DNA of 64,000 nucleotides from Candidatus Alcyoniella australis (GTDB lineage Bacteria; Lernaellota; Lernaellaia; JAVCCG01; Alcyoniellaceae): positions 15,933 to 79,932 of the forward strand of contig JAVCCG010000072.1 in NCBI GenBank assembly GCA_030765605.1, given 5' to 3'. Shown piece by piece: positions 36,972-44,805 of the stretch (within the stretch, counting starts at the first letter, position 1; each line of letters begins with the position of its first letter). The position numbers and the translations under genes were made by a program. Under the pieces are notes generated by a model, which did not search any database, was not told the origin of the DNA, and worked only from the letters and a program-made list of their open reading frames with translations.

Positions 36972-38294
36972 TCAAGCCCCCTTGCCTGTCAGCAGCGCCA
37001 GGCCGCCGCGCAGCAGCCCCCGCGCTCCGGCGGGTGATGTCGCGGCCGCACGGCGCCAGGTCCGCGGCCGTAAATAGAAGCGTCGATTGGCCCGGCGCAC
37101 GAACTCGAGCACCTGCGGCAACATGGGTTGCACTGCGTGCGATCCGTCCATCTGTTCCAGTCCTCCGCCGGGCTCGAGCCGCGAGCCGTAGCGCGGCGTG
37201 GCCAGGTTGAACGAGGCGTAGACCAGGGGCAACTCCAGCGCCAGCCGCAACGTGGCCGCGCGCTGGGCGTCGCTCTCGCCGGGCAGTCCGACCACGAAGT
37301 GCCCGCCGATAGGCACGCCCGCGCGATCCAACTGCGCACAGCCGCGCCTGATCGCCGCCAAGTCGATCCCCTTGCCCTGGCCCGCGAGCAGCTCGTCCGA
37401 CCCGCTCTCGATCCCGAGCTGGGCCACAACGCATCCGGCCTTCCGGAGCAGCCGCGCCAGCCCGTCGTCGATGCGGTCGGGGCGCAGATACGCGGCGAAA
37501 CGAAAACCGTAGTTGCCGGCAATCATCCGCTGCAACAGATCAGCGCAACGCTTGGGATCGGCGTTGAACGTCATGTCCTTGATGAACAGCCAGCGCAATC
37601 CGCGCTCGGCCAGGGCCTCGAGCTCGGCAAACAGATCGTCGGGTTCGCGTTGCATCCAGCCCGGGCGACCCGAGTTGCAAAACGCGCAGCCAAAGGGGCA
37701 GCCATGATCGGTCAGCAGCGAGGCGAAGGGCCAACCAAGGAACGGATGTCGATAGGGCAGCGGCCAGAACAGTTCGTGCAGGGGCAACGGATAGCGAAAC
37801 TCTCCTTTGAGCGGACCATCGTCCAACGGTCCCCCTCGCAGCCACAGCCCCTGGCCCGGCTCTTCGTCGGCGAGCCTTCGCGCCAGGCCATCGGAGGCCA
37901 GGTCGCGCAGGATCCCCTCGGCCGTGGGGATTGCGGTAAACACCTCCTGGGGCCGAAAGCGCGCCACGTCACCCGAGAGAAACAGCCTGCCCGCGGCCGC
38001 GCCCAACTCGTTGTAAAATTGCACGTCCGAGTCCAGCGCCGCCGCACCGATCAATCCCAACGTGGCCTGCGGTTTGAGGCGCTCGATCTCCCGGAGCACC
38101 TTTTGCGCGGTTTGTCCGCTGATTGCCGCGTCGATCAACGTCAGTTCACGCGCGCCGCGCAGCCAGCCGCTTTGCACCACTAGGTCCAGCGGCTGCCAGA
38201 CCGTGCGTCCTTTGCTCGAGGACGAGCAATAGTAATCGCGCATGGTCGGCCTGTCGGCCGGTGGATTGAGCAGCAGCAGCCTGTCTCTGGACAT
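36972..38294 (-). CDS. Radical SAM protein with N-terminal B12-binding-like domain (2 of 3)
   Basis: A 440-residue protein starting MSRDRLLLLNPPADRPTMRD. Residues 1-140 are a cobalamin-type domain with YYCSSSSKGRTVWQPLDL, found in COG1032-type proteins, but again no DxHxxG. SLLTDHGCPFGCAFCNSGR gives C199-C203-C206 for the [4Fe-4S] cluster, and LGIESGSDELLAGQGK is the SAM-binding strand. The PPDRDYYCSSSSK-like start differs from the other two radical SAM proteins, so they are not recent duplicates. The stop lies 2 bases before the start of the first radical SAM gene, so both must be co-translated. Product unknown. Confidence 0.84.
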   Translation of the reverse strand: MSRDRLLLLNPPADRPTMRDYYCSSSSKGRTVWQPLDLVVQSGWLRGARELTLIDAAISGQTAQKVLREIERLKPQATLGLIGAAALDSDVQFYNELGAAAGRLFLSGDVARFRPQEVFTAIPTAEGILRDLASDGLARRLADEEPGQGLWLRGGPLDDGPLKGEFRYPLPLHELFWPLPYRHPFLGWPFASLLTDHGCPFGCAFCNSGRPGWMQREPDDLFAELEALAERGLRWLFIKDMTFNADPKRCADLLQRMIAGNYGFRFAAYLRPDRIDDGLARLLRKAGCVVAQLGIESGSDELLAGQGKGIDLAAIRRGCAQLDRAGVPIGGHFVVGLPGESDAQRAATLRLALELPLVYASFNLATPRYGSRLEPGGGLEQMDGSHAVQPMLPQVLEFVRRANRRFYLRPRTWRRAAATSPAGARGLLRGGLALLTGKGA

Positions 38295-40137: not shown

Positions 40138-41553
40138 ATGGCCAACGTCCTGCTACTCCGACCCGGTCCCGACAAACTTGCGTCGCGACGCAAGTTCGTG
40201 CCCGACCTGGGCATCGGCTATTTGAGCTCGACGCTCAAGGCTCACGAGCACCGGGTGTGCTTCGTCGATCTCAATGCTCCGGGATTAGGCCCCGACGCCC
40301 TGGCCAACGTACTGCGCTCGGAGTGCTTCGACCTTGTCGGGATCAAGGCCTTTAGCAACGAGACCCCGCACGTGGTCGACTGTCTGCAAACCGTGAAAAG
40401 CCTCAGCCCGCAAAGCGTGAGTATCCTCGGCGGTCCGCATCCCTCGGGAATGGGCGTGCGCGTGCTCGAGCAATTCCCGCAGCTCGACCTGGCGCAGGTC
40501 AGCGAGGCCGAGAGCGGCCTGCCGATGCTGGCCGCCCTGGTTGCGGAACACGGCCGCGACGCGCTGGAGCGCGCCGACGATCTGGCGTCGATCCCGGGCC
40601 TAGTCTATCGCAGCGACAACGGAGCGCAGGCCAACGAGCGCGCGCTGGTCGAGGACCTGGACAGCCTGGGCCTGCCCGACTTCGAGGCGATGAACCTGCG
40701 CTGGTTCGTCAAGCATCCGGCGTGCTTCTTCGGCCAGTACATCCCGCTGATGACCGGCCGCGGCTGCCCCATGCCCTGCACCTACTGCGCGGCGCGGCTG
40801 ATCAGCGGCAGGCAACGCCGGGTGCACGGGCTGGACTATCTGCTCGAATACCTGCGCCGCGTGCGCGACGACTACGGCGCGTCGAGCTTCTCGCTGATCG
40901 ACGACCACTTCCTGGCCGAGTCGCAGTTCGCCCTGGCGTTCTGCAACCGGCTGGTCGATGAACAGATCGGCCTGCGCTGGCAGTGCGCGTCCAACGGCGT
41001 GCGCGCTGAGATGCTCAGCGAGGAGCTGGTGCGCGCCATGGAGCGCTCGGGCTGCCGCTTTATCTCGGTGGGCATCGAGTCCGGCGCGCCGCGGGTACTC
41101 GAGCTGATGAAACGCCGGGTCGACGTGCAAACCCTCTACGAGAAGATCGCGATGGTGCGACGCGTCAGCTCGATCCGCGTCTGCGGCTTCCACGTGCTGG
41201 GCTTCCCCGGCGAGACCGAGCAGGAGCGCGAGCAGACCCTGCGCGGCTCGTTGCGCAGTCGGCTGGACTACGCCGACTTCCTGATCTTCCAGCCCTTCCC
41301 CGGCTCGGTAATCGGCGATCGCATGCTGGGCTCGATGGCGCTGGAGACCCTGGCCAACATCGACTACGACCGGCCGACCACCGCGATGGACCCGCAGACC
41401 GCGCTCCAGGTCAAGCGCTTTCAGCGCAAGGCCTATTTGCGCTTCTACCTGCGACCGCGGGTGCTGTTCGGCGCGCTGGTGCGCGGGCCCTCGCTACGGA
41501 TCATGTTTAAAAATTTACTCTCGGTATTCATGCCCAGCCGGGGCGGCCGATGA
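40138..41553 (+). CDS. Radical SAM protein with N-terminal B12-binding-like domain (3 of 3)
   Basis: A 471-residue protein with AGGGG four bases before the ATG. The N-terminal half starts MANVLLLRPGPDKLASRRKF and includes FDLVGIKAFSNETPHVVDCL and SILGGPHPSGMG, the cobalamin-binding-like fold. TGRGCPMPCTYCAARLISG supplies C210-C214-C217. ISVGIESGAPRVLELMKRR and HVLGFPGETEQEREQT are the SAM and substrate segments. The C-terminus (FQRKAYLRFYLRPRVLFGAL) is basic and aromatic and resembles the tails of the other two family members. It overlaps the GT2 gene downstream by four bases (ATGA), which suggests a joint pathway in which a modified sugar or lipid is then glycosylated. Confidence 0.85.
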   Translation: MANVLLLRPGPDKLASRRKFVPDLGIGYLSSTLKAHEHRVCFVDLNAPGLGPDALANVLRSECFDLVGIKAFSNETPHVVDCLQTVKSLSPQSVSILGGPHPSGMGVRVLEQFPQLDLAQVSEAESGLPMLAALVAEHGRDALERADDLASIPGLVYRSDNGAQANERALVEDLDSLGLPDFEAMNLRWFVKHPACFFGQYIPLMTGRGCPMPCTYCAARLISGRQRRVHGLDYLLEYLRRVRDDYGASSFSLIDDHFLAESQFALAFCNRLVDEQIGLRWQCASNGVRAEMLSEELVRAMERSGCRFISVGIESGAPRVLELMKRRVDVQTLYEKIAMVRRVSSIRVCGFHVLGFPGETEQEREQTLRGSLRSRLDYADFLIFQPFPGSVIGDRMLGSMALETLANIDYDRPTTAMDPQTALQVKRFQRKAYLRFYLRPRVLFGALVRGPSLRIMFKNLLSVFMPSRGGR

Positions 41554-42281
41554 GCGAACCGCGCAAGCTGAGCATCGTCATCCCCTGCTACAACGAGCAG
41601 CTCTACGTCTACGAGGTGCTGCGCCGCGCCTGCCACGTCGATCTGGACGAGCCGAACATGCAACGCGAGGTATTGATCGTGGACGACGGCTCCAGCGACG
41701 GATCGGTGGAGCAGATCGAAGCGTTCATCGCCGAGCATCCAAGCGCGCCGGTTAAGCTGCTGCGCCACGAGCGCAACCGCGGCAAGGGAGCCGCAATCCG
41801 CAGCGCCCTGGCACAGGCGACCGGCGATTTCCTGATCGTGCAGGATGCGGACCTCGAATACTCGATCGAGGACTACCCCAAGCTGCTGCGGCCGCTGCTC
41901 GAGGGCAAACCCGTGGTCTACGGCACGCGCCACTCGGGGCGCATCTGGCGTACGCACATCTCGGGCACGATCTTCGCCCTGGGCGGAGCGCTGGAGAACA
42001 TCTTCTTCCGCCTGCTCTACCCACGCGGCCCGACGATGACCGACATCGCCACCTGCTATAAGTGCTTCCGCATGGACGTGATCAAGAGCCTGCCGCTGCG
42101 TTGCGAGGGGTTCGAGTTCTGCCCCGAGGTCTCGGCGATGCTCGCCAACCGCAAGCTGCCGATCCACGAGGTGCTGGTGAGCTACACCCCGCGCAAAGTC
42201 TGGCAGGGCAAGAAGATCCGCACCCGCGACTTCTTCATCGCCATCGCCACCCTCTGGCGCGTGCGCACACGGCGTTTGTAG
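41550..42281 (+). CDS. Polyprenyl-phosphate glycosyltransferase-like GT2
   Basis: A 243-residue GT-A enzyme with KLSIVIPCYNEQLYVYEVLR, EVLIVDDGSSDGSVEQIE, NRGKGAAIRSALAQATGDFL, IVQDADLEYSIEDY (DxD-like site) and YGTRHSGRIW. MTDIATCYKCFRMDVI and the CEGFEFCPEVSAML segment are typical of dolichyl-phosphate glucose/GtrB-like transferases, here without a C-terminal membrane anchor. It would load a sugar on a polyprenyl phosphate for a GT39-like enzyme such as the one at 38380-40095. Its ATG overlaps the stop of the radical SAM gene (ATGA). It differs from the second family member at 15217-15930. Confidence 0.84.
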   Translation: MSEPRKLSIVIPCYNEQLYVYEVLRRACHVDLDEPNMQREVLIVDDGSSDGSVEQIEAFIAEHPSAPVKLLRHERNRGKGAAIRSALAQATGDFLIVQDADLEYSIEDYPKLLRPLLEGKPVVYGTRHSGRIWRTHISGTIFALGGALENIFFRLLYPRGPTMTDIATCYKCFRMDVIKSLPLRCEGFEFCPEVSAMLANRKLPIHEVLVSYTPRKVWQGKKIRTRDFFIAIATLWRVRTRRL

Positions 42282-42360: not shown

Positions 42361-42380
42361 TTTACGCCAACGCTGCGTGT

Positions 42381-42564
42381 TAGCCCGGATTATTAATGGA
42401 GATTCGTATACGAGGCGTGCAAGATGCCGCAAGAACTAGGAAGCCGAGTCGATACTCCGCAGGCGTACCCGCTGAGGTACGTCGAGGATGGATCGACGAG
42501 GATGACAAAGTTATTGCGCGCAGATTGTGCGCCGCAGTAGAAGCCTCATTAATATTCCGGGCTA
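42381..42564. repeat. 184-bp MITE-like structured inverted-repeat element
   Basis: Terminal inverted repeats of 18 bp bound the element. The left end 42381-42398 reads TAGCCCGGATTATTAATG; the reverse complement of the right end 42547-42564 is identical except for one base (position 10). TA dinucleotides at both outer ends could be a TA target duplication or part of the repeat. Inside are further perfect stems: CGTACC/GGTACG at 42464-42469 and 42476-42481, CGTCGA/TCGACG at 42480-42485 and 42493-42498, and GCGCA/TGCGC at 42518-42522 and 42528-42532. There is no transposase. The element has no matching second copy that I could see in this window. It could be a MITE, a REP-like or a structured-RNA element. 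Confidence 0.72.
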
Positions 42565-44805
42565 CCGCACCCAGCCGTGGTAGCGTCCGCCCCAGTAGAC
42601 CATCAGCCACTCGGCCCCGGCATAGCGGTTGTACGGCCCGCCGCGAGGCGTGGCTTTCCAGTCCGGCGCGTAAGACCAGTAGTACTCTTTGGCCGGCCGG
42701 CGCTCGATGGGGATGTAGACGTCTCCGGCCGAGTAGTCCTGATTGACCGTGGCATACCAATAGCCGTTATCGAGCATCGGCACGTCGGTGCGCTGCAGTT
42801 CGTTGAGCGCGATCAGCCCGCCGTTGGAATCCGGGTTGTGCGCGCGATGGGTCAGGTTGGCCGCCGCGTTGCCGAAGTCGTGGCTGCCGGCGTAGATGTA
42901 GTCCAGCACCCGCGCCAATTCGCCGTAGATCTGCGGATCCTCCTCGTAGGCCAGCAGGTGGTAAAACCCCGAGTCGAGGAAGTGCTGGCCGCCGTACTTG
43001 CGCGCGATGTTGTGCATCGCGTAGTAGACCAGCAGCGTGGCCTGATCCATCCGTTCGCCGTAGTAGATATCGAGGAACTTATCGCGGAAGCGCTGCTCGC
43101 CGGTGATGTGCCAGGCGATCTGTAAAAAGCACAGTGCCAGCGAGGGCGAGGCGCGCAGGTTGCCGAAGGTGGCGTTCTGGCCGTCGAACTGCACGGCCCG
43201 TAGGCCGTTATCCACGATCAACGTCATGATCTCGTGTACGTCCTGGCGGATGGTGGCGCGCTCCTGCTCGTCGGCCACCAGGTCGTAGTAGTTGGCGATC
43301 CCCGGCAGATAGCCCGCGAGCTGGTCGATCGAGATGTCCCCCACCCAGTACAGCTCCTTGACCGGGTGGCGGTGCCAACGCTTGATCGTGTCCGAATTGG
43401 GTTGCAGCGGCACGAGCTGCTCAAAGAAGTATGTGGTGTAGTTGCGCACTACCTCGCCGGGCAGCGGCGTGGTGTGCGACATGTTGTGCAGGGTCTGCCA
43501 GGCGCGTCGCGCATACTCCGCGGCCTCGGGATCGCCCGTGACCGCGTAGCGGAAGCTCTGGGCCGAGCAGTAGATCCCGGTCAGCCAACAGGCGTCCTCC
43601 TGCCACCAGTTGGAGCCCGCGTCCACCGGCCACTGGCCGTCGCGCACCGTGACGATCTGACCGTCGCGCCAGCACTTGGCGTGTAAATGCTCGTCGATCC
43701 ACAGCGCGCTGTCCTCGAGTTCGACATCGGCCGCCAGGGCCGTGTCGGGCTGCTGCGCCTGCTCGTCGAACAGATCCCAACTATAGCCCACGGCGCGCCC
43801 CGTATAGCGTTGCGCAAGCTCGATCTGTTGCTCCACGCGCTCGGGGTCGGCCGGTCCGGGCCAGGGACGCAGCGTCCCTTGGTCCACCGTGTCGAACAGC
43901 TCGACCTGCGCGGCCAGCTCCACTTGTGCGCCGAGCATCGTGCGCGCCTCGAGCAGCGAGGCGTAGTCGCGCTCGAGGGTAATCCAGTTGTTGCGATGTG
44001 CGCCGATCCGGTCGGCGATCAGCAGCACGTCGACCCCGCAGGCCATCGCCGCCTCGATCCAGCTGCGCGCCCAAAACGCGCGAAATTGCGAGTCGTCGAT
44101 TTCTTCAATCTGCACGTCGCTGTCGCGTCGCAAAATCTCATCGACCATCAGGGTCAGCGGCGGTCCGGGGTAGCACGCGCTGATCCACAACTGTTGGTCG
44201 GGCGCCGCGTCGTGGCATGCGTCAGCGACCTTGGTCAGCAGCGAGAGCCACTGCGGTCCGGGCTCGGCCGTCAGCTCGTAGTTGAGGTAGAACCCGAGCA
44301 GCGCCGGATGATCGGCGTACAACGCGCTGAGTTCCTGGACCAGCGCGGTCTGGCGCGCGACCTCCGCGGCCTCGGGATCGAGGTTGATCTCCGCGGCGTT
44401 GCGCGCGGCGCTCAGGCCGATCACTACTTGCATCTGGTTTTCTTGCGCAGCGTCGAGCAGCGCGGTCACCAAATCGTCCACTGCCAGACCGTCCATCCGC
44501 TCGAAGCGCGACGAGGCGTAGAGCGCCTCGTCGTGCAACAGGGTCCAGGGCAAAATCACAATCTTGGCTTGCAGCTCCTGTTTCGCGCGACCGAGCTTGG
44601 CCGACAGCTCGTCGGCCTCGAGCCCGGTGTTCCACAGCGGATCGAGAAACACGCCGTCGAGCTGCAACACGATCGTCTCGTCGTCATCGTCAGCGTGGTC
44701 GCCGCCGTCGTCGTCGTCATCGTCAGCGTCGCACGCGGCAAGGCCCGCGACGATCAGGCACAGCAAGGCGAGCAACAGCCAGCGTAAAATCGCGCGCGCG
44801 CTCAT
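42562..44805 (-). CDS. Large Asp-rich-linker lipoprotein with DUF4434-like TIM-barrel and alpha/alpha-barrel-like domains
   Basis: A 747-residue outer-envelope lipoprotein. The signal peptide ends IVAGLAAC, a perfect LAAC lipobox at C25. The linker behind it is CDADDDDDDGGDHADDDDE, an aspartate-rich spacer like that of the 33161-33652 protein. Residues about 45-370 resemble DUF4434-type glycosidase-like TIM barrels (VFLDPLWNTGLEADEL, GFYLNYELTAEPGPQW). Residues about 380-740 are helical with many tryptophans and tyrosines (GSNWWQEDACWLTGIY, SYAPDWKATPRGG), probably an alpha/alpha barrel. The catalytic role is inferred, with no active residues I can name. The stop codon TAG is the last three bases of the adjacent inverted-repeat element. 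ATGA overlap with the next gene. Confidence 0.75.
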   Translation of the reverse strand: MSARAILRWLLLALLCLIVAGLAACDADDDDDDGGDHADDDDETIVLQLDGVFLDPLWNTGLEADELSAKLGRAKQELQAKIVILPWTLLHDEALYASSRFERMDGLAVDDLVTALLDAAQENQMQVVIGLSAARNAAEINLDPEAAEVARQTALVQELSALYADHPALLGFYLNYELTAEPGPQWLSLLTKVADACHDAAPDQQLWISACYPGPPLTLMVDEILRRDSDVQIEEIDDSQFRAFWARSWIEAAMACGVDVLLIADRIGAHRNNWITLERDYASLLEARTMLGAQVELAAQVELFDTVDQGTLRPWPGPADPERVEQQIELAQRYTGRAVGYSWDLFDEQAQQPDTALAADVELEDSALWIDEHLHAKCWRDGQIVTVRDGQWPVDAGSNWWQEDACWLTGIYCSAQSFRYAVTGDPEAAEYARRAWQTLHNMSHTTPLPGEVVRNYTTYFFEQLVPLQPNSDTIKRWHRHPVKELYWVGDISIDQLAGYLPGIANYYDLVADEQERATIRQDVHEIMTLIVDNGLRAVQFDGQNATFGNLRASPSLALCFLQIAWHITGEQRFRDKFLDIYYGERMDQATLLVYYAMHNIARKYGGQHFLDSGFYHLLAYEEDPQIYGELARVLDYIYAGSHDFGNAAANLTHRAHNPDSNGGLIALNELQRTDVPMLDNGYWYATVNQDYSAGDVYIPIERRPAKEYYWSYAPDWKATPRGGPYNRYAGAEWLMVYWGGRYHGWVR

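Follow-up and report, generated by a model that had tools for sequence, protein, structure and literature searches.

An intergenic 184-bp hairpin in Candidatus Alcyoniella australis and a probable IS1380-mobilised MITE family with a conserved fold

Between two convergent genes, a glycosyltransferase-like gene and a 747-codon gene, the window analysed here (the whole stretch of 64,000 nucleotides from Candidatus Alcyoniella australis) carries a 184-bp inverted-repeat element. An earlier note on this DNA, made from the sequence alone, proposed that it could be a MITE mobilised by a transposase elsewhere, or a structured RNA. Which of these is it? The features of the locus are collected in Table 1. 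As the note had it, the first 18 nt of the terminal repeats match at 17 of 18 positions; the repeats themselves are 25 nt long and 84% complementary. The absence of coding content was also confirmed: no protein-coding gene uses the element, and only its last three bases serve as a neighbour's stop codon. Two radical-SAM-like proteins with CxxxCxxC motifs are encoded nearby (window positions 36972-38294 and 40138-41553) and are unrelated to the element.

Table 1. Features of the element and its neighbours, in window coordinates.
Feature	Position	Strand
Whole element, 184 bp, one rod-like hairpin	42381..42564	+
Left terminal inverted repeat, IS1380 type, TAGCCCGGATTATTAATGGAGATTC	42381..42405	+
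Right terminal inverted repeat	42540..42564	-
Target site, left 4-bp copy: TTAG (family consensus CTAG)	42380..42383	.
Target site, right 4-bp copy: CTAC, decayed	42562..42565	.
Left internal-loop signal, conserved: TTCGTATACGAGG (family form TTCGTNGCGAGG)	42403..42415	+
Apical core CCGCAGGCGTACC-loop-GGTACGTCGAGGA, common to many phyla and to differing terminal repeats	42457..42488	+
Right internal-loop signal, conserved: GCCGCAGTAGAAG	42531..42543	+
747-codon gene; its TAG stop (42562-42564) is the element's end	42562..44805	-
Glycosyltransferase-like gene, neighbour, ends 99 bp before the element	41550..42281	+

Copies in the Alcyoniella genome

About 40 copies, 76-91% identical to the window copy, are present in the same genome. 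A covariance model built there recognises 31 full-length copies of 182-184 bp, together with longer, shorter and truncated forms, and many solo ends are left as well. Sites matching the terminal repeat number 89, against 0 for a reversed control pattern. Because of these copies and end sites chance is excluded. Being short, non-coding, multi-copy and bounded by terminal inverted repeats, the element meets the criteria for a MITE; a single copy without relatives anywhere, which would have refuted the earlier reading, is not what was found, since relatives also exist in other genomes (see below).

The longer forms (L033, L035, L036 and L042; 262-274 bp) exceed the others by about 80-100 bases, which lie between positions 64 and 75 of the element, and copies of about 121 bp (L040 and L029:148-268) have the middle missing. 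Solo left ends at five loci (L037, L052, L056, L066 and L069) are followed by a second shared sequence, which looks like another composite repeat family; several of these sequences end in GGCGGCTCAAAGCCGCC, a terminator-like hairpin.

According to a simple codon-usage gene model, all 36 copies checked are intergenic, and nine of the 36 supply, with their terminal TAG, the stop codon of a neighbouring gene. The orientation to the neighbouring genes is not fixed (++ 12, -+ 12, +- 6, -- 5).

Target site and IS1380-type ends

The TA flanks had been considered compatible with a TA target duplication. This proved incorrect: the actual duplication is 4 bp with the consensus CTAG, of which TA is only the centre. 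Of 109 ends, 95 have Y (C or T) at position -1, just outside the element. The 4-mers that flank an Alcyoniella copy on its left and right agree in 9 of 39 cases (3.7 by permutation, p 0.0036), with TTAA/TTAA, CAAG/CAAG and CTGG/CTGG among the equal pairs, and foreign elements with the same ends have identical flanking 4-mers in 23 of 38 cases by our own count, CTAA/CTAA included. An empty site could be shown only for a Nitrospira homologue, not for the window copy. That element (L113:6448-6641) is absent in G397, where a single CTAG occupies the place and provides the adjacent gene with its stop codon, and the insertion is present in G409 and G386; insertion is polymorphic among these related species.

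CTAG is rare inside genes. The insertions collect at gene ends because CTAG occurs there as C followed by a TAG stop, and the duplication restores the stop. This bears on the possibility that the element serves the host as RNA, i.e. as a 3′ untranslated or processing signal that was spread by transposition and kept for mRNA stability or termination, as is reported for ERIC in Yersinia. The strictly intergenic position of the 36 checked copies, often directly at stop codons, would suit such a role, as would the more RNA-like character of one strand (see below) and the RNA effects of ERIC and Correia elements, which have been reviewed (PMC2229807, PMC10969869). However, the placement at stop codons follows from the CTAG target, the copies take no fixed orientation to neighbouring genes, and the Nitrospira insertion differs between related species; we regard a host-serving RNA element as quite unlikely.

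The element ends (TAGCCCGGATTATTCATGA) together with the 4-bp duplication match IS1380-family insertion sequences, including intact cyanobacterial, alpha- and betaproteobacterial elements, and satisfy the criterion for an IS1380-derived element, namely ends of the form CCYG.ATT..TCA adjoining a 4-bp CTAG-like duplication. The terminal-repeat sequence is found across phyla. At two cyanobacterial loci (L100 and L103) an IS1380-family transposase of 449 residues (PF13701, 2e-129; NF033539, 370 bits) is flanked on either side by the same end, and a Granulosicoccaceae contig (L132) holds an IS1380 gene with the same end. Annotated plasmid IS1380 copies from Acidovorax, Bradyrhizobium, Rhizobium and Pseudanabaena have the same kind of end, with CTAG or CTAA duplications. 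In four genomes (G277, G361, G209 and G353) the variant of the element's end matches that beside the same genome's IS1380 genes or relics. With multiple copies, terminal repeats, a target duplication and autonomous IS1380 elements in other bacteria that share these ends, the suggestion of a MITE mobilised by a transposase elsewhere holds up: the element is a MITE of IS1380 type, and its mobilisation by an IS1380 transposase is inferred from sequence.

The transposase with the same ends, which that suggestion calls for, was found as IS1380 elements in other bacteria but not at home. No IS1380 gene (PF13701) was detected in the Alcyoniella genome (the assembly is a 98%-complete draft), and none in the complete genome of N. 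moscoviensis. The Alcyoniella copies look orphaned, or else the draft has lost their mobiliser; genomes with the element often have no mobiliser of their own, as in these two cases. Within the class, PF13701 is represented by a single gene (L077), the ends of which are unrelated, and a 763-bp pair of weak ends (L057) holds ordinary genes and was rejected as an autonomous partner. In G048 a non-IS1380 terminal repeat occurs in one element only, and no partner was found for it.

A MITE of the IS630/Tc1-mariner group with a TA duplication, as the pneumococcal RUP, could also be envisaged, given the TA at the target centre and the preference of IS630 for CTAG. Neither a 2-bp TA duplication nor a DDE_3 partner, the criteria for membership, was found: the duplication is 4 bp, CTAA/CTAA and TTAA/TTAA included, the Alcyoniella genome has no DDE_3 gene, and the full-length elements with matching ends are IS1380. 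We consider an IS630 origin extremely improbable.

Fold, covariation and homologues

The 184-bp strand folds at -89.1 kcal/mol (z -8.5, with 0 of 200 shuffles as low); for the minus strand z is -6.7. Three tandem stems had been described inside the terminal repeats. Short local stems do exist, but both the minimum-energy and the consensus structure are one continuous rod-like hairpin with internal loops. When the 31 Alcyoniella copies are aligned freely (alignment A1), 96% of cells pair, and the check for covariation that had been proposed gives compensatory changes in 28 of the 59 pairs of the whole-element hairpin, as compared with 11.3 in shuffles (0 of 500 reach the observed count) and at most 10 when slid. 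In the foreign element set all 59 pairs covary (score 0.718 versus 0.195). One-sided changes in A1 produce G.U more often than A.C (56 versus 21 cells), an excess that is not significant when distinct events are counted (28 versus 17, p 0.14); in the interior of a broader set the numbers are 116 G.U and 27 A.C. This excess suggests that one strand is the folded one. Only A1 and a short core alignment (A3) are free, while alignments A4, A6 and A7 were fitted to a model and their pair counts lean to it. The second possibility of the earlier note, a structured RNA, is thus supported as regards structure, by whole-length covariation and strand-polar use of G.U; that the folded molecule is RNA and not single-stranded DNA has not been shown.

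A blastn search of 60 relatives had pointed to a distribution limited to the one genome, a view overturned by the structure model. This covariance model, built from Alcyoniella copies only, detected homologues with values of 1e-19 to 1e-7 in Nitrospira, Desulfobacteraceae, Gammaproteobacteria, Acidobacteriota and others. Of 386 genomes drawn from across the bacteria, 27 (the Alcyoniella genome included) contain homologues, and some of these elements have unrelated terminal repeats. Such a model rewards any long hairpin (antisense matches reach 54-65 bits), and therefore only positions outside pairs were tested. Conserved unpaired positions match at about 23 of 38, about twice the 11 expected by chance; the left-hand signal is conserved as TTCGTNGCGAGG, the tip as CGGAGGCGTA..TACGTYGAGGA and the right-hand signal as GCAGNAGAA. 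Most of the genomes are drafts, and the model E-values are rough. No copies were found by blastn against plasmids, no Rfam family exceeded its curated gathering score (only tRNAs lie near homologues), and a literature search for the element's sequences returned unrelated papers only.

Some homologues have quite different outer ends that are constant within a genome (GAGCCAATTGCAAAA in G262, GGGGTTGTGAAAT in G093 and GGAGCCTGTCGGAGTA in G299), and N. moscoviensis has two element families with the same core and different outer stems. The 36 model matches in this complete genome are mostly short elements covering model positions 33-152 only. We observed that in these elements of about 120 bp (L262-L281) the outer arms (GGCTGCTCAAAA...) vary between copies yet remain complementary, and so offer a transposase no constant terminal repeat; such varying arms fit poorly with recognition by one transposase. 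On an IMG/VR contig filed as viral (L199:760-860), the conserved core sits within another hairpin with ATTTCGGGT ends. Our inference is that the core persists as a unit, with ends that are exchanged or refitted. For the IS1380-like end variants, gradual divergence of the ends along with their transposases is an alternative.

These data also bear on whether the element is merely an ordinary IS1380 MITE, that is, an internal-deletion relic with a functionless hairpin, the arms of which are complementary only via replication template switching. The ends and target duplication are indeed the same as those of IS1380, and imperfect palindromes are known to mutate by template switching. Yet correction of the arms would also erase the mismatched internal loops, which are among the most conserved positions across phyla, and the interior is common to elements with other ends. 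We therefore view a functionless relic as unlikely.

Proposed mechanism and comparison with known systems

The explanation we favour, with a probability of roughly 0.75, is a SINE-like MITE family that is mobilised by IS1380 and selected for its structure; the role of the conserved fold is not shown. IS1380-family DDE transposases would recognise the ~20-bp ends of the non-autonomous element, which would be inserted at CTAG/YTAR sites with a 4-bp duplication; up to this point the sequences support the proposal. In contrast to a simple deletion relic, its interior is a conserved fold, made up of a long hairpin, purine-rich internal loops and a conserved apical core, that selection keeps while the stems change by compensation. 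From the excess of G.U over A.C we infer that only one strand is read in folded form, either as RNA or as single-stranded DNA. We further infer that the outer 20 bp are fitted to the transposase carried by the host genome, which would be why related elements elsewhere have different terminal repeats. The fold might serve the spread of the element in a SINE-like manner, e.g. by binding a protein or protecting an intermediate, though this is inferred and not shown; no expression or transposition data stand behind these readings of mobility and fold.

Only tentatively can the proposal be widened to a bacteria-wide superfamily of mobile structured elements, SINE-like and acting through RNA or DNA in single-stranded form. 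In such a superfamily the folded core would be inherited and not the terminal repeat, with ends borrowed from the host's DDE transposons (IS1380 and others); long-known orphan repeats such as ERIC might be distant members.

The MITEs of bacteria are generally regarded as degenerate remnants, confined to narrow groups and for the most part lacking an identified mobiliser. In the present case, a single conserved and covarying fold occurs in elements of many phyla with differing ends, and a transposase family can be named for one large branch. If true, this would provide a covariance model for annotating numerous intergenic repeats that are so far unexplained, would point to a mobiliser that can be tested and would account for the position of such insertions on stop codons. 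The conserved fold also raises the question of what cell component recognises it.

The IS1380 insertion sequences (NF033539/PF13701) share with the element the repeat CCYG.ATT...TCA and a 4-bp CTAG/CTAA target duplication. In contrast to them, the element has no transposase gene, is 184 bp rather than ~1.6 kb long, and has as its interior a conserved hairpin that is not seen at the ends of the autonomous IS1380 elements read. The ERIC/IRU/RU-1 repeats of enterobacteria are likewise intergenic (ERIC, ~127 bp) and fold on themselves as a whole; by eye, ERIC also has a similar apical CC..GGAGC-UUAC..GUAA stem and GCGAACGCAGC arm, but it differs in its TATAC ends and short terminal repeat. Two E. 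coli ERIC repeats (L230 and L334) resemble the short N. moscoviensis elements by eye, in their GGCAAGCGA and GCGAACGCAGC arms. Membership of ERIC in the family was rejected, as two models of this family gave background scores (12.4 bits; rank 2 of 40 kb, E 0.25). Long-hairpin MITEs have been described from bacteria before, in most cases with no mobiliser identified (PMC2229807, PMC10969869). Pneumococcal RUP and the Correia/NEMIS elements of Neisseria resemble the present family in being structured MITEs of bacteria, with terminal repeats at targets that contain TA, but each has been described from a single species or genus, RUP is linked to IS630, and no core common to several phyla is reported for them (PMC2229807).
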